NCBI RefSeq assembly: GCF_016859285.1
Contig: NC_053400.1
Coordinates: forward strand, 15,308,546 to 15,372,545
Origin: Xiphias gladius
Lineage: Eukaryota; Chordata; Actinopteri; Istiophoriformes; Xiphiidae
Length of the DNA stretch: 64,000 nt
Reading direction: 5' to 3'
Positions 10,101 to 55,204 of this stretch are shown in pieces. Numbering within the stretch: position 1 is the first letter of the stretch; each line of letters begins with the position of its first letter. A model generated the notes under the pieces. It was given only the letters and a program-made list of their open reading frames with translations. It did no database searches and was not told the origin of the DNA. Both the position numbers and the translations under genes were made by a program.

Positions 10101-13100
10101 TTACAATTCATTAAATTTGACTTCTGCAGCTGGGTGCTGGTCCAACTTACTGCAGGCAGTTAGTTTGTTTCATAGCTTGAAATTATAGCTGTGTTCTTTA
10201 AATGGCTAAAAAACAAACAACTATTGCTCACTTGGCCAATACTGAAAAGTGTCAAGAAAAAAATTCAGGCCATTCATTGGGAAAGAGGTACATACAATGC
10301 ATCCAACCTGACTATTGTACAAAAGTAGTCTTACTACTTGTTAAATTATGTATGACAGGACTGTTCAAAAAGTGGTACAAGTCATCAGTGGAAAGAGGTC
10401 CTAATATTTCTCGTATCGGGGGATATTCACTACAAGAACAAATTGACAGCCTTGAAAATAGAAAGTGTGATTTATCAGTGCAGTAACTGCAGAAAAAAAT
10501 CCACTGTTATTCCCACTCAAGTTGACATGGTCTTTTTCGATTATTATAACAATCATTTCATCAACAATCAAAATTTTTTTTTTTTAACTCCACTCTTAAG
10601 ACACTTACACTACAATGCAGCTTTTAATTCAACATCTAAAAGGTTATCAAGTCAAAGCAATCTATGACCCTGAAATTAGACACGATACCTCGACTGTACT
10701 GCATGTAGTTAGTAGCACAGTTATACTGTTGATTTGTCCTATGCAAAGTCCTCTTGTACACACCTCCTCTTTGCCATCCATTCCAGGTAGACACATTTCC
10801 TCCTCTTCTTCATCCTCAGAGTCTTCCTCTCCCTCCTCTGTATCCTCTTCTTCTTCCATCTCACTGCTGTCACCTTCTTCCTCTTCGCTGCCATCCTAAT
10901 TTAAAAAGTTATTAAGTTATTACAATGCTTTTCAAAGTGAGTGAGCTTTCACAACCAAACAGAAATTCATTCTGGTCTCCTTCTCTCACCTCTTCATCAC
11001 TGCCATCCTCCTCTTCTCCCTCCTCAGACTCCTCGCTGTCATCAAAGAACCTGGATTTTGAATCTCCTGCAGCCTTGGAGGACAAAGAGGAGCAGGAGGG
11101 ACCTGCATCTCCTTCTGCCTTACCGGCCTTTTCTTCACCATTGGAGCTTCCTGACTCTCCACAGTCAGCTGCTGTCAAGGAAAAAGAAGGGCAACACAAG
11201 GTTTTGGACAAGAGGAATAGGAAGCGAAAAAAGGTGTAGAAGAGCGTAAAAGAGAGGATGTTTAATAAGTGTTTAGATTTTTACTTTCATGTACTTTTAG
11301 TGAAGCCACTTCTACGCAGTTTAAGATCCCCTTTTTTAAATGCTCGTCAGGAGGCAGACCATTTTTTCTATTTTCAAGTACTCATTTAAATATTTTAACT
11401 AAATTAACACAATAAGTTTTTCATCTCATGTCATCTTTTTGCAGAGAAAAATGTTCTTGTTAAAGACTCCCGAGTCCCAGCTCTGTACCTGCACCACTGC
11501 CTTCACCTCCTCCTGTTCTCCGACAAGCTCGCAGCTTAGACCCACATGCTGCTCCTTCACCTTCCTTCATCTTCCCGTTACTCTCCTCCTCCACCTCTCC
11601 GTTCAGCCCATCTTTCTTCTGTCCTTCCCCACCTTCCCCTTTGTCTCCCGAGGCCTCGGGGTGCGGGCAAGACGCCTTCTTAGCAGCCGCACTAAGAACA
11701 ACAAAGAGGAAATCAAAAAGGGTCAACCACACGAGTCTTAAAATTTTAAACGCTCTTTTACACTTCTATCAAGAACACACTGGACTAAATAGAGGTATTT
11801 GGTGTATTGCATATGAAAGATTTTCACTGAAATCAAACATACAGATTACATACATACTTGTCCAAACATCATCTGTCCAAATTTTGAGAAAAAAAAAAAA
11901 AAAAAAAATTAAAAAAGATGTTCCAAGATGTTGTCATAACATCTTTAATGTGACATGATTCCTGTTGCAACAGGTTGTGGCAGCAGGATGTTATACAATA
12001 AGGAGGGATCAATTTTATGTTTAGAACAATTGGACTATGTAGAAAAATGTGCAGACTGGCATTGAAAAATATGTCATGACTTCACTGGCTGGACTTGCAT
12101 GAGGTCGCCACTGGTGATGGACTGCTCTAATTAAAGTAACATTTCCAGGAAGTTCAAGTGCCATTTATTGTCTGTTTAAGTCTTAAAGTACTCTGCCACA
12201 AAGTATCCATCCCTGTAAGAAAATATTATATAAAAGTTTGTTGGACTACCTGATGGCAGCAGCATGTTTGATAGCATTGCGGTTCTGGCCGTAGCGTACC
12301 AGCAGCTCCTCTATGGTCATTGTGGCCTCCTCATGGAGTAAAGCTGCCTCCTCTGTGTCCACTGAAAGCAGAGCAGAAACCTGGACTAAGTCGGAAGTTA
12401 TCACTCTGATTTGACACTGCTGTTTTTAATCCACCAGTGGCGTACACAAACACACTTCAGCATGACAGTTCTTTTTGGAATTCACATCGTTTTTTGTGTT
12501 TTATTCACCACCCTTGTTTGCATCATAATTACCTTTTTCCTATATTATGTATTATGTTATGTATAATATGTTATGCTGGATTCCTGATTATGTTCCTCAC
12601 AACTGACCTCCACACCAACCCATAATACATAAATGTTATTAAGGGTGTACTCACAATCATCCTCCTCTGCCACCTTTTCAGCTGGTGGCTCCTCAGTGGG
12701 CCGTCCAGAGATCTGGACCAGCTCTTTGATGACGTCCTCTGTGGTCATTCTGCTGTCGATGGCCAAGAAGGCATCCTCCAATGCCTGGAAACAACAGGCA
12801 CAAAATGTGTTGTCAGTAAAAGTCAAGCAGCACAGTGAAATATTGGGTTTAAGATTAATGAGATTCATTTTGGAGGTCTGTTCAGAAAAAATTTTGAATG
12901 TGTTAGGACTGTTGAACAAAGGAAAAGAGCTGACCACCCTCTAGTGATTCTAATCCCACCTGAACTGTAACTATGGCAGAGTCAAGCAGCACACATCTGT
13001 TCGTGAAGATCTTTGCTGTGTCAAACTTGTTTAAGATGAGTAGGGTAGGCTGTGGTCTCTACACTGTCTCACCTTTTGTAGTTTGCCATCTTTGTAGGTC

Positions 13101-16490: not shown

Positions 16491-16901
16491 TTATGTTATT
16501 ACTACTGTGTTATACTATATTGTCACATCTGTTTACGGCAGCCCCCACTTATGGGTGTCCATAGGAGGAGCTATAGCTGTTGACAAATCCATTCTAGTGT
16601 GTTATAAACCATTTATTTTAATATTAACATATTGATCGTAAACTATAAACAGGGGGACTTATATTGTCGGCATGTTAAATAGCTTAATTTTGTTTCGTTG
16701 AGCTGTTTTAGAAGACCTAATCTAATAGAGCGGATGTGATAGTTTTGTGCTCTTGGTGATTTTTACCCTTTTTTTTAATTATCCATTTGATCCGGCTCCC
16801 TCCCGCTTGGCGGCAGTAATGCACCATCTCGTTACTTAACAAACGTTCTAAAAACATCAGAGGAGGGAGGAGGGGAGAAGAATAAACGTCGGTGATTCAA
16901 C

Positions 16902-19532
16902 ATGGCGCGGGAAACCCGGGAAGACAGGGAGATGGATGTTGGCGGAGAGGTCGATGCAGAGGCGGACGGTCTCGCTCCATCCACTTTAAAATTGTACGAA
17001 GCACAGTTTTTCGGCTTCACCCCGCAGACCTGTATGTTACGGATCTACAGCGCCTTCCAGGACTGCCTGTATGACATTTTACCCGTGGTGGAGAAGGTGT
17101 GTGTGAGGCAGCTGAGTAGAGGCGAGTCCGACGGGTCCGAAGAGCTGCTCCGGGCCCGGGCCCGGGAGTGCAGCCGGAAACTGCAGCATTTCCTCGAAGA
17201 GCGGTTCAAGCAGCTGTCGGAGCGGATGGAGGCGCTGCTGGTCAACCGCTGCTTCTCCGTGCCGCCAAATGTCCTGCTGCCCGACGACAAGTCACACAGC
17301 AACTACCCCCAAGACGTACAGGTGGGTGGAGGAAATGGAGAAGGGGGGAGGAGGGTTTAGGTCAGACAAGCTACTGTTTAATTAGTGTATTTACAAAAAA
17401 ATGCACTGTGCAGTCTGTAAATATCTGGACAATATCTGTTGTGGGCATCTGACTTCAGTCTGAAGCACTAACCGAGACTACGGAGCCGGGTTCCTGCTTT
17501 AAGACGGTTTGTCCTGGGGTTTTCACATCCATGCGGGCTGAACTGTAGGTTGTCCTTTTCACACATAAAGTTAGTCCCCCTCAAATTGTGAACACTGCAG
17601 AGGGAAAATGGCAGGGCTGCATATCCTACACTGTTCACCGATGAGGATATAAACACTCAAATGAAAGCTTTATATCTGTAGTGTGTGATACCTCATATTC
17701 CTGCCTGACTATATTGTGCCGTACATCAAGGCGGCGACTAACGATATTTTCATTAACGATTGATCTGCCGCTTATTTTCTCAATTAATTGATTAATTGTT
17801 TTGTCCCAAAAATGTCAGACAATGGTGAAAAATGTCTGTTGTAATTTTCGCCAGCCAAGGTGATGTCTTCAGATGTTTTTCTTTTTCTGTGCTACCAATT
17901 GTCCAAAACCCGAAAATATTCATTTCACTATCATGTGCAGCAAAGAGAGGTGTCAAATCTTCACATTTGAGAGCCTGTAAACCAGCAAATATTTGGCATC
18001 GAAATAGTTGCAGATCGATTTTTCCGTCAGTCGATTAATCGACTAAACATTGCAGCTTTACTAAACATATCTGTATATGATGTACCTGACTGTATATATG
18101 TGTATCAGAGCCCAACTGATAAATCGGCATGACATATTGACTTAAGCCTTTACAGATATACCAGTATCAGCATATACTGTATGCCAGCTGAAGAAACGTC
18201 TGTACAGCAATGCGAAAGATATGTTTGAGGTCCTTCCCAGACCATGACGAAGTTTCATATATTGTCCACCGGAGACACTGACAGATTTAATATCCTACTG
18301 TAAAAGGTTCCTCTCAGTACATGTCTTGGTCACAATTCTTAAAAAAGCAAATGTAAGACTTCCTTATAAAAAAATTTGTTTATGTTTATGTGTCTATGTA
18401 AAAACATTATGAACACAAAAAAGACAGACCGAAAAATCATTGTCAGATTTTTAAAATTCAGAAATCTAGTGCCGGTTAGGCTGTCCTGGTAACTCTGATG
18501 TAATCTGACATTATCGGCCGATTTTAGCTCATCACAGATACACTGGGATCAGCATATGTGTTGCCCGATAAGTAAAAGAAATCAAAAAACAGATATACCA
18601 AGGATATGTTTGAGGTAATTTAGAAACTCATTTAATGTTTGACAAAAGAAATCTTAACTCAGTGTCTATTTACTAGCTTTTTCCCAACAACTGCATCTCA
18701 CAGTCTTTGTCAGTAGATTGTGTTTGCTCAGTTTTTATTGTAATCACATGACCAACATATAGAAATTCAGTCGCACGATAACAGGTTTTGTGTGTCTCCA
18801 TTTCCTGATGAAGACTCGGAGATGTGGATGAAAGTAACTTTCCGCTCCTCACTCAAGGCTCAATATAGCCCTCACAACGTTCTACTTCATTTTATGTGTA
18901 GCAAAATAATCTCAAAGGTCCACTTACTAATGGACATTGGCTGATTTTATATTGCATATTTTTTTTTCTAAACTCTCAGATTGGAGTCTGTGTCAAAAAT
19001 CCAAATCCCATCCAATCATGCTCTACTGAGGAAATTGAATGGTCTATTAATAAAATAGCGCTTTTTTTATGAATTAGGCATTTATGTTTGTCGCTCCAGT
19101 TTTTGAAGGTTCTGTTTCTATTGATTGGATTGTGTGTCATTTTGCAGTGCAGCCATTATCAGATATGATTTATTTCTACAGATTTCTCATTATATCTGAA
19201 AAAAAAAGAGGTCTGAAGTAATCTATCTGTCTATGATTTGACTGTGGTCCTCCTCCATCCAGGAAGTGCTGAGGCTGGAATCGTCCCTGACAGACCTCCG
19301 GAGAGCCTATGAAGCAGAAGTTTGTGCCAGACAGGCCCTGCTAGCTGAGTTGGAGGAGCAGAAGGCGGTGCAGAAGCAGCTGGAAGGGATCCTGACGTGG
19401 GTCAGAGAGCTGCAGGCGGCCTGGGTGAAGGAAGGTAACGGCAACTTCCATGAAAGTTTCCAACTGGTGATGGAATCAGTAAGGAAACTGCAGGAGGCCG
19501 TCAGAGAAGTCTACACCAAAGCGCCTCACTGA
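16902..19532 (+). CDS. mis12: MIS12 kinetochore complex component, complete, 2 coding exons
   Basis: Exon 1 is 16902-17321 (140 codons) and exon 2 is 19263-19532 (89 codons plus stop). The junction is CAG/GTGGGT ... CCAG/GAA, in phase 0. The 229-aa protein carries the Mis12 signature YEAQFFGFTPQTCMLRIY at about residues 33-50, the block NVLLPDDKS near the end of exon 1, and AELEEQKAVQKQLEG in the C-terminal coiled coil. Human MIS12 is 205 aa; the excess is mostly an acidic N-terminal extension (residues 2-30). Known role: core subunit of the MIS12 complex, which links centromeric chromatin to the NDC80 microtubule-binding complex. The ATG at 16902 is the first in frame; Met-11 (16932) is an alternative that would give a more usual length. 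The 1.9-kb intron contains repeats but no other gene. Confidence 0.94.
17728..18058 (+). repeat. Same dispersed element, copy B (mis12 intron)
   Basis: GGCGACTAACGATATTTTCATTAACGATTGATC ... AAAAATGTCAGACAATGGTGAAAAATGTC ... GTCGATTAATCGACTAAACATTGCAGC. Nearly full length, inside the mis12 intron. Confidence 0.78.
18107..18600. repeat. ATCGGC-type dispersed repeat in mis12 intron
   Basis: Begins GAGCCCAACTGATAAATCGGC and contains TTATCGGCCGATTTTAGCTC and AGTATCAGCATATACTG / GGGATCAGCATATGTG. The multiple TATCGGC motifs match a fish repeat whose ends read ACCGATATATCGGC. Confidence 0.55.
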
Positions 19533-43793: not shown

Positions 43794-46700
43794 TCATACC
43801 TGTAATACGGAAAGAAAAACATGAGTTTAGTGTGTTTTTACAGACAGTGTCAGTGCCGAGGGAGTTACATTTATTTTATGTTTTTGTCAGGTAGATAAAT
43901 CTTTTTTTGTGAACTCACCTCTGTGGCGATGATACATTCATCTTTCTGGTCCGATATGACGTAAACGGACTGGTATTTGGTGTCGGTGGTACACTGGTAC
44001 CTGCTGTCACTGGGACATTGGTATTCAACATCACTGGTTGACTGGTATTTGATGTCACTGGTTGACTGGTATTTAAGATCACTTGTGGCGTGATAGTTGA
44101 GATTGCTGGATGACTGATACTTTGCTTCGCTGCAGCTTGGCGACTCTTCCACATGTTTCTTTTCTGATGCATCACTGTGGGACAAAGAATGATAAACATA
44201 TTCAGAAATGCCATCCTTCAAACGACAAATGCTAAAGCCTCTAGATGTAGATATTTCCATTGCATTTAGGATGATATGTGTAAATTTTAATACTTGCATT
44301 TTTAACAAGCTTAGTTTAAGGCATTTGTGATATAAATTTTCCAAGCAGTGTACCTATGTAAGTGTACATTTTGACAGCTGTGTACCTGTTTTGTCTCTTC
44401 CTGTATGTTTCCTCTGAGTCAAACTCATCCAGCATTTCACATTTGACCTCTGGCTCATCGTGCTCCTCTTCTTTACACAGCAACATCTCCTCAGGCCGAA
44501 GCTCGTGGACCAGGTTGTACTCCACACTGGGATAGCGAGTCTTAAAGCCGTTCTTCTCTGATCCGTTGAGCCCGCTGATTCCACTAAGACCACCCAGTGA
44601 CCCAGCGAGATCTGAATGGTAATCTGCCTTCTTGTTGGTGTTTTTGATTGACGTTGTCATCATCGCGCCGAGTTCCTTGTCACTGCGGAGACAATTGTTG
44701 GTGGTCGTCAGGTTGTTCATGGTCTCCTGGCTGTCACTGTGGACACTGTCACTCTGGTGACTTTGCCGCTCTTGTAATTTGACCCGGATGTAGACCACCA
44801 GCACTGAGCAGCCGATCAGGATCACAAGAACGAGGAAGATACCGGCACACACGGCTGTCCATGGGAATCCGCTATCGTCACCCTCGTCATCTTCAACATT
44901 TCCACTCTCTGAGGAAGAATATCGACGATCCGGCCCATCCACCACCGGCTGACGCCTGGGAACCTCTGGTAAGAGGAACTGGCAGTTGTGACCGCCATAG
45001 CCAGGCACACAGGCGCACACGTAACGGCCGCCACGCTCGTGGCAGGTGGCTCCATTGTGGCAGGGGTTGTGATAGCAGCGGGAGATGGGGGAGCTGCAGT
45101 TTTTGCCGGTATAGCCTGCAGGGGAAGCAAAGTTTAAGAGTCTAGAACAAAACTAATATTAAACCACATAAAAAACGAACACCGTAAACATAATCTCACA
45201 AGAGAGAACTGTGTAGAGCTGTCATACCTGGAGGGCAGTTACAGGTGTAGCCATTCAATCCCTCCTGACACGTCCCTCCATTCTGACATGGGAAGGACAG
45301 ACAGTATCCAGAAATACTGCTGCTGTCCTCACAGTTAGGACCAGAAAATCCCTCAGGACACTGACAGAGGTAGGAGTTCACCAGATCCACACATTCTGCA
45401 TCTTCAGAGGGGAGAGGGATTGAGGGAGAGAGTGAGGGTTAGTCCCCAGATACCTTACTTGGTTCAGGTTTAATTGTAGATGAAGGTAAATGTAAAAACA
45501 CAGAGGACAACGTACCATTTAAACAGGGATTGGAGGAGCAGTGGTCAATTTTCTTCTCGCAGTTGAAGCCAGCGTATCCCACTGGGCACTGACAGAAGTA
45601 GCCACCTTCAGGGTTATCGACACAGCGTCCGCCATTGAAGCAAGGCCCATCTGCACAGGTGTTGGCGTTCAACTCACAGTTGTTGCCGTAGAAACCAGGT
45701 GGGCAGGTGCATTTGTAGCCATTGTCATTATCCTATATTGGAAAGAATTTAAACAGTGGTTACACAGAAGCTTGTTGCCATTGCACTGTGTTTTTTTAAT
45801 CAACACATCACTTCTCTCTCACTCTTCCTCTCACTTGTTACTCACAGTGCAGCTGCCTCCGTTACGACAGGGGTTTCCAGAACATTCGTTGACCTGAACC
45901 TCGCAGCTGGCACCTGTGTATCCAGGTAGACAGGAGCAAGTGTAGCTGCCCTGGCCAGTGTTGGTACAGGTGGCTCCATTAAGGCAGGGCTTATGGTGCG
46001 TGCAGTAGTTCAGATCTGGAAACATCAACAATAAACAAGCATTTATAAACAACATAGTTTTAATATAAAACTACGAGGGCAAACTGAGTCCCAGGGGGTC
46101 CCCACGAAGTAGTAAATCTCTCAGTAAACTCACCCTGGTTGCAGAAGAGCCCGCCCCATCCCTCCTGGCAGTTACATTGCCACGGCTGTTGGCAGGTGCC
46201 ATGGAGGCAGCCCGGGTAACGGATACAGTCATCACAGTAACGCCCACTGAAGCCCACACGACACCTGGGAACACAACATTCATTAAATACTGTTGATAAC
46301 AAAAACAAGGAAAACAATGATCAGGAAAAAAAGGTTTTGCTGAATAAAAATATGACATTGATCTATTTATGATCCATCCCAGATATTAAAAAAAGAATTT
46401 CCGTGGTTTCTGGACTTACTTGCACTCTCCTGGTTTATCACAGAAACCATGTTTTTCATCACAGCCAGGAAGACAGATTGCTGCAGAGAGGAAACAAATG
46501 GTGACAGGTGAATTATGGGAAATCCATTGTTGGAAACATGTGTTTGCCCTCCATCAGTATCCCATTCACACAGGGCGTTTTCAAACTGTTGCCTGCCTGT
46601 CTGGTGGGTGCCCTGGCCTTCTTATCTGTTTGTCTGCTTTTCAGCCTGCCTGGTTGCATTCTTGTCTGTCCAGTTTTGTTTACCTGCCCACCTGTCTGTC

Positions 46701-49700
46701 TGTCGGTCTGTCTGTCTACAGTCTCTTTCATTCCCTCCTTCTAGTTTTACCCTGTCACAGAGGCTTAATAAACAATGTTTAGTGGTTCAAATCACTCTGG
46801 ACCAGACTTAGCTGCCAAAGTGGAAAAGGATATAATCATCTTTAATACTGCAAAAGTTGATAAATTAAGTTGATGATAAAGCCCCTCAGCTTTATCATCC
46901 AACATGAGGCTAAGACATCTTTGGTCACCAACGGAGGGAACCAGCCAACAAGCCCTCTCCTTTAACATGGTTGTTCCCCAACACAAAAGCGTCCCACACA
47001 AAGCCTCCTTTCTACCCTTGACTGTGGGTCAGAAGTCCCTTTTCTCACCCTTGGCCCCTCTCCTCTGCCCCCCCCCGATCCTCCTCTTCTCCCTTCCTCT
47101 TCCATCCACCTATCCCCTCTCTTCTCCTTGTCTCTTCTTGCTCTCCTTTCCCTCCTCCGCTCCTCCCGTCTCTCCTCACTACCCTCCTCCTCCCCCAGGG
47201 CCAGCTGGTCTGTGTGGAGCTAACCACCAGACAGCTGCTCCATTGTCTCCTCTCACCGAGCAGCTGCCCCCTCCACAACAATACACAACCCTGCTTGGCC
47301 AATCACCAGCCCGAACCGCAACAATACAGGACCCCCACTTGGCCAATCGGGGAGGAGGTTTGGGGCGAGGAGGCCCCAGTGGTCTAATGGAAGGCACGCG
47401 GCGTGTGAATTACTGAGGAGCCAGTGCGGCTCATTAGAATGGAGGCCTCTGGTGCTATGGGATAACTAACTGACGCCTGTTGCACACGGGCCCCGCATCA
47501 GGAGGTGGAAAAAGTCCCTAAACAATAATGATAGACAAGTGACTGTTGGGGAAATTAACTCTGAAAATTAGTTTTAGAAACTTTTAGAAATTCAGAACAC
47601 TCAAACTATTTGTATGATCAATGTTAATTTAAGCCTCTTTACAGTTTTTAGAGTAAAATAATGAAATAATGCTTTTTTTAAGCTCGTGGTCATTCCACTT
47701 TAAGCCAAAACTAATGTAAAGCATGCATTATTACTCCTCATGTATTGAGGCAGAAATTTTGGGGTCAGACGCTCTATGTAAACATAGGCACCTACTATCA
47801 ATGACTGTGCTGCTCTTTCTATCCCACAAGCTGGGATAGAACTAGTCCAATCCTACTGAGGTAAAGTATTGTTGTCTCTTTTTCTATTATCCCCTGTTTA
47901 TGGCCTTTCCACTGGTTCAATGTTCAAGCACCTGAAAGCTAGTGTTAGTTTAAAAATCAAACCCACTTACGTTCAGTGCAGTACTGTCCCTTCCAGCCAG
48001 AGTTGCAGATGATCTCTCCACGCTCACCACAGGTAAAGTGCCCGAAGGCATCGTCTCGTGGCCGACAGAAGACAGAGCAGCCGTCGCCATAGTAGTGCTC
48101 ATCACACAGGAAGCGATAAGAGTAACGCAGCTCCGTCCTGCTGGCTGTCTGCATGTCCTTGGACCATTCTTCTCCCACAGTGAGGTGACGCTGAGTGGTG
48201 ATCCTGCTGATCAGATGCTCTGGGTTGTCTGCACAAGTGAATGATGCAGCTTGTTATTGTTCATGTGTTATTACTGTTGGTATTATGATTGAATGCTAAA
48301 CAGCATGATATTCTGCTGAACAGTCACCAGTTTGGTGCGCGGGTTTTTTTTGAGAGGCACCCTGTCATTGCCATAAATTATCAGTTATATTCCCTTTGTT
48401 TGCAACAAATTTCAGATCTTTGAACATTTTTCTAATTGACACTTCTTTGCTTGCTCTTCTATAAAAAGACAGCCACATGCATTATTATTTTTGACCATGA
48501 GGCTGCCACACTGCCAAAAATAAAGGGTTTTTATGGTTCTAAGACAGTAAAGTGGTGGATGCTGCTGACTGAATTAAAACAATGTTTTAGTTGTGGACTG
48601 CGCACTCTCATTTTTCCAAAAAAAAATGGAACGGTTACACAATAAAACTTTGGTGTCCACCACAAATGCATAAACACACTCCCATGCTGCTAGTTAGTCA
48701 TCATTACTGCAGTGATAAGAGCAGGACATAAAGATAACAGCGCAGGGCCAAATCACAACTGGGACGTGCAAAAACTATGTGCGGTGTTTTACCCGTGTGA
48801 TGTTAAAGAAACCTGGTAGCATAAAAAATAAAGACTGTCTTGGAATTAAGGTACTTATCATCATGCACCTCAAGTTGATCTCCATGAGAAAATCAGAAAA
48901 TTTGCCATTATATACACAAAACTAAGTTTTATGCCAGGAAGTGCCAGGAAGTGACTGTAGTTTTTATCAGTTGAAAATATGATGTACATTTTAAGTTTAA
49001 TATGAAGGAATATTAGCCCTTTTTCTACATTGGGGAAACGAAACATGATCGGGAGTCAACACAACAAAGTGTAGAGATAATTTAACATGTCATCTATTTT
49101 TAAAGGAGATCTATGTGTAGAAAATAGATGAATATAAGTAGCGCCTAATTAACTGTCAGCAAAACACCTTAAAAGATGAAGAAAAAAAAATATATATATA
49201 TATCAGACTTAGTGTATCCTACTTAGCACTAATGACTGAGCACTAAGTGAAAAAGGTGCTACTGAAAGAAAACAAGGCCACTATTAGCCTTCTGGCCTGT
49301 CTTTGAGTTACACTGCTGCCTTCTCTGGCTGCCACCCACCTGTTGTCAGGTCGTCCAGGGAGTCAGTGTGCAGAGCTTCAATGATCAGTGAAAACGTCCC
49401 CTGAGGAGAGACAGAGAGAGTCAACAGCTGCTCGGCCTGGAGGCCTCACTCCCTCCCCAGAGCAGCAGAGGGCCATTAGGAGGCCTACCAATAAACTTCA
49501 CGGCCTAATTCCCGTGTTGATTAGGGGCCTAATAAGGGCTACTACCTGCTCCCTTTTCACACCCCTGCTACTATCACACTCTGACACCGCCGTAAAACCA
49601 AACGAGACGGAATTTCACGCTGCGCTGCCAATGATGTGCCAACTGAGAGGATGTTAGATTTCCCACCACGCCTGGTCGGAGGAGAGAAGCGTTTGGTGAA

Positions 49701-49713
49701 AACACTCCCCCCT

Positions 49714-49771
<58 letters not shown>

Positions 49772-50768
49772 CTCCCCTCCCCGTTTTATCCCACCAAAGA
49801 GCACAGAAATACTACAATAGCCCCTCTCACACACTGCTGACAAAGACCCTCACAAGTGTTGAGTTTGGGAGCATCTGTTGCGTTTTGCACTCTTCAAAGC
49901 TAATATGTCCCACTGGAATAAGATCATAATAACTTCACAGTCTTCCCATGGTTTTCGTCACTCGCTCAAAATGTGACATAAATCATAATTAAGACCGCGT
50001 GACAGAAATATCGCACTAAAAACTATAAATGAAATGCATATAGAGTTAATAAACTACAGGAATCGTACAGGTAAAGTTGATCATCTTTGAGGGCAAAATG
50101 CCAAAAGGTACAAAATTTCAATTTACAAATGATTCAGTTGTGATTTATTGTTGGGGAGATGACATTAATACAGTATGATAAATAATATCCCTCATGAGAT
50201 GTCTATAAACACTCACCGGCCATGTGAAACCGAAGGGAAAGCGGACTGGGTTGGTGAAGCTGTCCGCATTGGTCTCCGGCACCTGGAAGGAGTTGGAGCC
50301 GAGGACGGGAGTCACAGCCCCGCCATAGGTGCAGGGAGGCTCGGGGGAGACGTTGGCCTGGTAATGCTTCAGACAGATCCGAAAGAAAGTCTTGCATTCA
50401 CACTGCTGGTGGCCCTGTGGATGAGCGGAGCCTCCGGGGCAGCAGTTGGCGTTCCCCGTGATCCCTTTCTTGTTGAGAAACTCCTGCAGCTTCAGCTCAA
50501 ATACTCCGGAGCAGAAAACCTAGAGAGGCAACACAAAGACACAGTCAGTCCGGTGTGTTTGAGACAGGTGACTTCGGGCTGTTTTTTTTGGAAATGTGAG
50601 CATTATTCTTACGCAGAAAATATTGAAAACGTGTTTTCAAATCTGTGCCGACAAACACAGCGTGCGTTTTACACGCTACCCTGTAATGTTATCATTTATC
50701 TTCATTGGACCTACCTGGCAGGTGAGTAGGGAGAGAGTGACAACCAGGAGCAGAGACAGGCGTCCCAT
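43794..50768 (-). CDS. dla/dld: Delta-family Notch ligand (DLL1 type), complete, 12 coding exons
   Basis: Joined exons (minus): 50768-50715, 50519-50217, 49400-49340, 48228-47971, 46480-46420, 46264-46134, 46015-45846, 45732-45516, 45401-45228, 45115-44386, 44174-43919, 43799-43794. They total 2,421 nt, or 806 aa plus stop. Order: signal peptide ([15 protein letters not shown]), MNNL domain ([11 protein letters not shown]), DSL domain (about 178-226, with [11 protein letters not shown]), eight EGF-like repeats to about residue 522, one membrane helix (about 560-586, [20 protein letters not shown]), and an intracellular tail ending in the PDZ ligand IIATEV. The last exon codes only for Val and the stop (GTA TGA), a split also needed to complete ATEV. 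Role of the family: membrane ligand that activates Notch on neighbouring cells in neurogenesis and somite formation. The DLL1/DeltaA/DeltaD group is clear, but I cannot decide between teleost deltaA and deltaD. The donor after exon 10 (GTACAC) is weak but required by phase. Confidence 0.95.
43964..44131 (-). repeat. 24-bp coding repeat, seven units, in the Delta intracellular tail
   Basis: Residues 735-790 consist of seven consecutive 8-residue units: [56 protein letters not shown]. The last unit matches the conserved DTKYQSV of vertebrate DLL1, directly before the PDZ-binding end. At DNA level adjacent units 3 and 4 are nearly identical over 24 bp, showing recent tandem duplication. Confidence 0.93.
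47195..47470. promoter_or_regulatory. Candidate enhancer in Delta intron 4
   Basis: Within 150 bp there are three CAGCTG E-boxes (47202, 47232, 47261) and two TTGGCCAATC CCAAT boxes (47299, 47343), followed by CACGCGGCGTGTG, which resembles Hes/Her sites. The segment is complex sequence beside low-complexity pyrimidine DNA (47,040-47,190). Function is inferred only from motif density. Confidence 0.35.
49715..49769. repeat. (CA)n microsatellite in Delta intron 2
   Basis: 55 bp of CA between Delta exons 2 and 3. Confidence 0.97.

Positions 50769-55083: not shown

Positions 55084-55204
<121 letters not shown>

Follow-up and report, generated by a model that had tools for sequence, protein, structure and literature searches.

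Why should one Delta ligand in a fish genome carry seven copies of a short motif shortly before its PDZ-binding end, and what has kept them there? The question arises from a stretch of 64,000 nucleotides of Xiphias gladius (contig NC_053400.1, positions 15,308,546 to 15,372,545; hereafter the window), in which a preliminary description had placed seven 8-residue units at residues 735-790 of a Delta protein. A splice-consistent model of the whole gene gives exactly these numbers, in a predicted DLL1-type Delta of 806 residues. The parts of the model needed here are as follows:

43794..50768, minus strand: DLL1-type Delta gene, splice-consistent model, predicted 12 coding exons and 806 residues
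43919..44174, minus strand: exon 11, 256 bases, holding 15 residues, the seven units and 15 further residues; acceptor tcccacag, donor GAG/gtgagt
43800..43918, minus strand: last intron, 119 bases, separating ATE from the Val codon
43794..43799, minus strand: exon 12, the Val codon and the stop, completing ATEV; tattacag/GTATGA

All 11 introns of the model are GT-AG, with splicing predicted, and the reading ends in the C-terminal PDZ ligand as ATE/V. The predicted protein has a signal peptide, an MNNL and a DSL domain, 8 EGF repeats, one transmembrane segment, and a tail of about 220 residues; the signal peptide, the transmembrane segment and the EGF count were judged by eye from the translation. 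Pfam matched MNNL (PF07657, 3.2e-37) and DSL (PF01414, 6.2e-19). The best PDB match is Delta-like protein 1 (4xbm, 950 bits, residues 22-539); DLL4 (5mvx) reaches 395 bits over 22-332, a shorter chain than 4xbm, so the two scores are not like for like. By these matches the gene appears closer to DLL1 than to DLL4 or Jagged. TBP-family matches lie some 70 kb from the gene (C1:15280510-15281778, C1 being the contig of the window), in keeping with human 6q27, where TBP adjoins DLL1. We call the gene DLL1-type, without choosing between the names deltaA and deltaD; the ATEV-ending class is, as we assume, that of vertebrate DLL1 and zebrafish deltaA/deltaD. Compared with DLL1-type Delta ligands, it has the same MNNL, DSL, EGF and single transmembrane arrangement, and the same D-x-x-Y-x-x-V followed by ATEV, but seven units instead of one in its predicted 806 residues. 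Two possible acceptors of exon 9 lie 6 bases apart (45395-45401) and give 806 or 804 residues; the alternative would shift the array to residues 733-788. Rfam, at gathering thresholds, gave no match in the whole window.

The array occupies bases 44131..43964 of the minus strand (168 bases), and its units read, by translation:

44108..44131, minus strand: unit 1, SEAKYQSS
44084..44107, minus strand: unit 2, SNLNYHAT
44060..44083, minus strand: unit 3, SDLKYQST
44036..44059, minus strand: unit 4, SDIKYQST, identical to unit 3 at 21/24 bases
44012..44035, minus strand: unit 5, SDVEYQCP
43988..44011, minus strand: unit 6, SDSRYQCT
43964..43987, minus strand: unit 7, TDTKYQSV, presumed ancestral; its position is common to four paralogs, and it is the sole YxxV unit

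The periodicity is far above chance—across periods 4-20 the best self-match score of the 87-residue tail is 26, while the highest value in 5000 shufflings of these residues was 15—and TRF found the 24-base period independently. Within the units, Tyr is present in 7/7 while position 3 holds six residue types; position 1 is Ser, always encoded by AGY, in units 1-6 and Thr in unit 7; position 8 is Ser, Thr or Pro in units 1-6 and Val in unit 7 and in the four paralogs, which leaves unit 7 as the only one whose Val completes YxxV. In six units YQ is followed by S or C, one more than the five first reported, the exception being unit 2 (YHA); the pair reported as nearly identical in DNA consists of units 3 and 4. 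In the genome, as represented by one assembly, the array locus was found once. Two neighbouring segments were considered as further units and rejected. SDQKDECI, after the array, lies 3 residues off register, and C15 (SEEKDECI) and C10 (AEEKNECI) have counterparts at the same place in genes that lack an array, so that its likeness to a unit is a coincidence. SDASEKK, at the start of exon 11, falls outside the array, since the C15 paralog carries the identical SDASEKK and only one unit.

How many copies the motif has elsewhere can be read from the other Delta genes of the same genome. We searched the window's own assembly (690.8 Mb) with the tail and with the DSL exon as queries. The tail matched the array locus itself and one place on C15, whose exon holds one unit. 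For the DSL exon, 15 candidates were scored, giving at least 11 places: the window gene; at least five that are Delta-like (C15, C10, C17, C7 at 28.08 Mb and C4 at 16.12 Mb, with 81 to 55% identity); and at least five weaker ones (36-42% identity), which may be Jagged-like. From 10 to 20 kb was then fetched on the 3' side of each of the five Delta-like paralogs, where tails were sought. Four of them have one unit at the same place—DTKYKSV in C15, DSMYQSV in C10 and again in C4, DSRYHPV in C7—and in each a recognisable version of the same C-terminal end comes after it. Across the five aligned terminal units (the window gene and these four), Asp, Tyr and Val are invariant. The C17 gene showed no tail of this kind in about 20 kb on its 3' side. 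This gene (C17:24715800-24725750) has a short tail, and in the frame that was read the sequence past the membrane segment terminates with no ATEV; it is possibly of the deltaB class.

The C15 gene, the other of the two DLL1-type Deltas in this genome, with matches to 11/12 exons of the window gene (exon 12 is too short to query), encodes the same residue at 514/684 aligned codons and shares SDASEKK...DTKYKSV...DECIIATE/V, but it has one unit only. The C10 and C4 genes and the ATEV gene on C7 also have one unit, and a donor after ATE as in the window gene; they differ in lacking an array and in having more diverged upstream tails. By their tails, C10 and C4 would belong to a DLL4-like class. 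Since four paralogs carry a single unit, the array is an expansion in the window gene relative to them, with six units gained as judged from these sequences; it may also have been present before the C1 and C15 genes split and then been lost from C15. Beyond this genome, relatives of the tail were sought in a viral contig collection (2 pattern matches) and in a genome contig collection (62 pattern matches), and none was confirmed, as is expected for a vertebrate gene; the tail had no match in the PDB.

The expansion would have arisen by tandem in-frame duplication within one exon, turning a conserved Tyr motif before the PDZ-binding end into that motif plus six extra 8-residue copies. The codons bear on this in two ways. 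Ser is encoded by AGY at position 1 in 6/6 cases and by TCN at position 7 in 4/4 (p 5.6e-4 one-way, 1.8e-3 in either direction), a split by position that points to copying rather than convergence; the test was chosen post hoc, after the codons had been seen, and covers 10/12 of the array's Ser codons, the Ser at position 8 and that at position 3 being left aside. Between copies, codons agree no more often than under random recoding (490/2000 redraws reach the observed value), so DNA likeness alone is no proof of duplication. The earlier idea of outward tandem duplication of the last unit is upheld insofar as the last unit is the conserved one, as the four paralogs indicate (and DTKYQSV is, we assume, conserved in vertebrate DLL1 at large); repeated copying out of unit 7 fits less well. 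A history in which a changed inner copy was amplified fits better, because Ser stands at position 1 throughout units 1-6 and Val is missing from their position 8, while unit 7 and the paralogs keep that Val. The simplest history would thus be that the terminal motif was duplicated once, the inner copy changed, and this inner copy was then amplified.

What could such an array do? Our preferred explanation, to which we give a probability of about 0.5, is that the tandem-duplicated Tyr motif forms a multivalent cluster, kept by selection, close to the PDZ ligand in a disordered tail. The copies would act together as a cluster of short linear motifs, each with a Tyr, and with Ser/Thr and some Lys besides. 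Kinases, phospho-readers, or the endocytic and ubiquitin machinery would then have a number of equivalent targets adjoining the MAGI/Dlg ligand, and the surface residence, clustering or turnover of this Delta would be tuned. The array holds 7/13 of the Tyr, 18/47 of the Ser/Thr and 4/17 of the Lys of the tail. Two motif patterns are of interest here, TxYxx[VI] of the ITSM/ITIM type and Yxx[LIMFV] of tyrosine sorting signals. Unit 7 fits both, whereas units 1-6 fit neither and end in YQ[SC][STP] or YHAT; only one of the seven units thus matches either pattern, and the extra units repeat the core of the terminal signal without its complete form. Since only unit 7 keeps YxxV and TxYxxV, the extra copies are more likely to add phosphorylation or low-affinity sites than AP-2-type signals. 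Both kinds of motif are named for human Notch-ligand tails in the legend of Figure 9 of PMC1965462.

Whether selection has acted on the array at all is the first point on which other readings part from this one. A neutral or nearly neutral tandem array, functionless and turning over by slippage or unequal exchange, would be in keeping with the frequency of tandem in-frame duplications in disordered tails, which are common, and with units 3 and 4, whose dS is about 0.43 on 8 codons; these two units are the only ones that look younger. The remaining divergence tells otherwise. Over all 21 unit pairs the mean identity is 14.8/24 bases (about 62%, averaged by hand from the pair table), which is low for an active minisatellite, and even the best pair stops at 21/24, so the copies are not the near-identical ones of an active VNTR. 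Identity among units at codon positions 1, 2 and 3 is 0.71, 0.75 and 0.39. Codon models on four assumed trees give omega of 0.19-0.20 with 2dlnL of 13.4-14.3 against neutrality, and 80 neutral simulations, run on a single tree, never exceed 5.1 and so fall short of 14.3 in every case. The result also holds without the Tyr codon alone or without codon 1, and omega is 0.16 without unit 7; it is weak for units 3-6 alone (2dlnL only 4.5). Adjacent units have a dS of roughly 2 (column bootstrap 5-95% 0.96-4.11, on eight codons per copy), unit 7 against the others 2.3, and all pairs taken as a composite 3.0; the C1 and C15 genes, compared over 684 codons, have a dS of 1.92, similar to that of adjacent units. 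With dS saturated and few codons per copy, it can be said that the array is old, but not how old. The array is old and under purifying selection, strict neutrality is disfavoured, and a neutral or nearly neutral array without function is in our view unlikely. Active growth of the repeat is rejected for most units, from their divergence and from omega. The suggestion that the array may still vary in length accordingly fares poorly, since the majority of the copies have diverged strongly, their synonymous sites are close to saturated, and there is clear purifying selection; of the contrary case named in the preliminary description, an array both old and static, the first half is supported by this internal evidence.

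If selection is granted, the main rival is that what is selected is a spacer, in which the array lengthens a hydrophilic disordered tail and carries the PDZ ligand further from the membrane, its residues mattering little beyond composition; we regard this as a real possibility, though a clearly weaker one than the multivalent cluster. Removing the Tyr and Gln codons leaves omega almost as it was (0.20), so the constraint is spread over the unit rather than confined to Tyr. In composition the array abounds in Ser, Tyr, Gln, Thr, Asp and Lys. Yet a pure spacer needs no 8-residue register, and here the register and all seven Tyr have been kept while position 3 takes six residue types. Heterogeneity among sites under a single omega (P 0.019) also argues against the spacer, though for Tyr by itself the departure is mild (P 0.074). 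Far less probable, to the point that we would be surprised by it, is a role at the DNA level, with the repeats serving as splicing elements or as in-frame alternative acceptors that trim the array. The last two bases of exon 10 are an AG belonging to a Ser codon, and AGY opens each of units 1-6 (44009-44129), so splicing to any of these units would preserve the frame. Moreover, two of the gene's 11 true acceptors, if withheld from the matrix, reach -1.0 and -1.4 and do not outscore the strongest AGs of the array (-0.7 and -0.9); an 11-site matrix is therefore too weak a guide against skipping of the array. Against this, the in-frame AGs of the array all score at or below the 82nd percentile among the window's 4129 minus-strand AGs, the true exon 11 acceptor scores 5.1 when left out, and third codon positions diverge freely.

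Published work on Delta tails bears on the multivalent cluster from both sides. Mass spectrometry detected MAGI1 and MAGI3 together with the Dll1 tail, and the cleaved tail is described as regulating neural development and binding Erk1/2, MAGI1 and MAGI3 (PMC8513606). In PMC6202052 the DLL1 and DLL4 tails are interchangeable and functionally equivalent in mouse embryos; the same paper cites work in which the tail affected signal strength or dynamics in culture, and a title in its references has DLL1 Ser/Thr phosphorylation important in vitro and dispensable in vivo. Tail equivalence and dispensable phosphorylation count against the motif-cluster reading. The authors of PMC4482573 saw no support for the DLL1 tail acting in reverse signalling.

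The PDZ ligand beside the array is itself predicted to be assembled across an intron. In the window gene, as in the four one-unit paralogs, ATE is followed by a GT donor, with a short last exon of Val and stop predicted downstream. In the paralogs this exon was located by pattern match at +131 (C10), +507 (C4), +105 (C15) and +1577 (C7) bases; a hand estimate gives about 0.4 chance occurrences of this pattern per 4000 bases, the length scanned, which makes the two distant last exons, those of C4 and C7, less certain. If the last intron of the window gene were retained, the frame would run past ATEV into a longer tail without a terminal PDZ ligand. A Platynereis Delta variant keeps its last intron and lacks ATEV, and alternative splicing before ATEV is stated to occur in vertebrates as well (PMC5356439 for both); a separate PDZ exon and retention of the intron before it are thus known in kind.

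In the open-licence literature searched we found no report of tandem repeats in a teleost Dll1 tail, or of short peptides of the array tail. The role of the Delta tail beyond its lysines and PDZ ligand is unsettled, and sister genes in one genome with seven and one copies, the seven kept by selection, offer a direct way to probe the motif. A broader proposal, which we hold tentatively and consider less likely than not, is that after the fish genome duplication one DLL1 copy converted the lone Tyr motif next to its PDZ ligand into a multivalent module under selection, and a valency of seven against one would then give the two ligands different internalisation, clustering or signal dynamics. Should many fish orthologs keep the array, this would amount to a functional difference between two fish DLL1 ligands, of which we found no description in the literature searched; should the valency reading be true, the pair would serve as a naturally occurring dose experiment on the information carried by the DLL1 tail.

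Other features of the window may be recorded briefly. Minus-strand open stretches at 10915-12940 resemble PPM1G, as we presume, with no Pfam match for the two pieces tried. On the plus strand at 16896-19529 lies a Mis12 kinetochore gene, with two open stretches matched by Pfam Mis12. The window also contains a 27-copy AGAC array and many long CA/GT microsatellites, at 55084-55190 and several other places.
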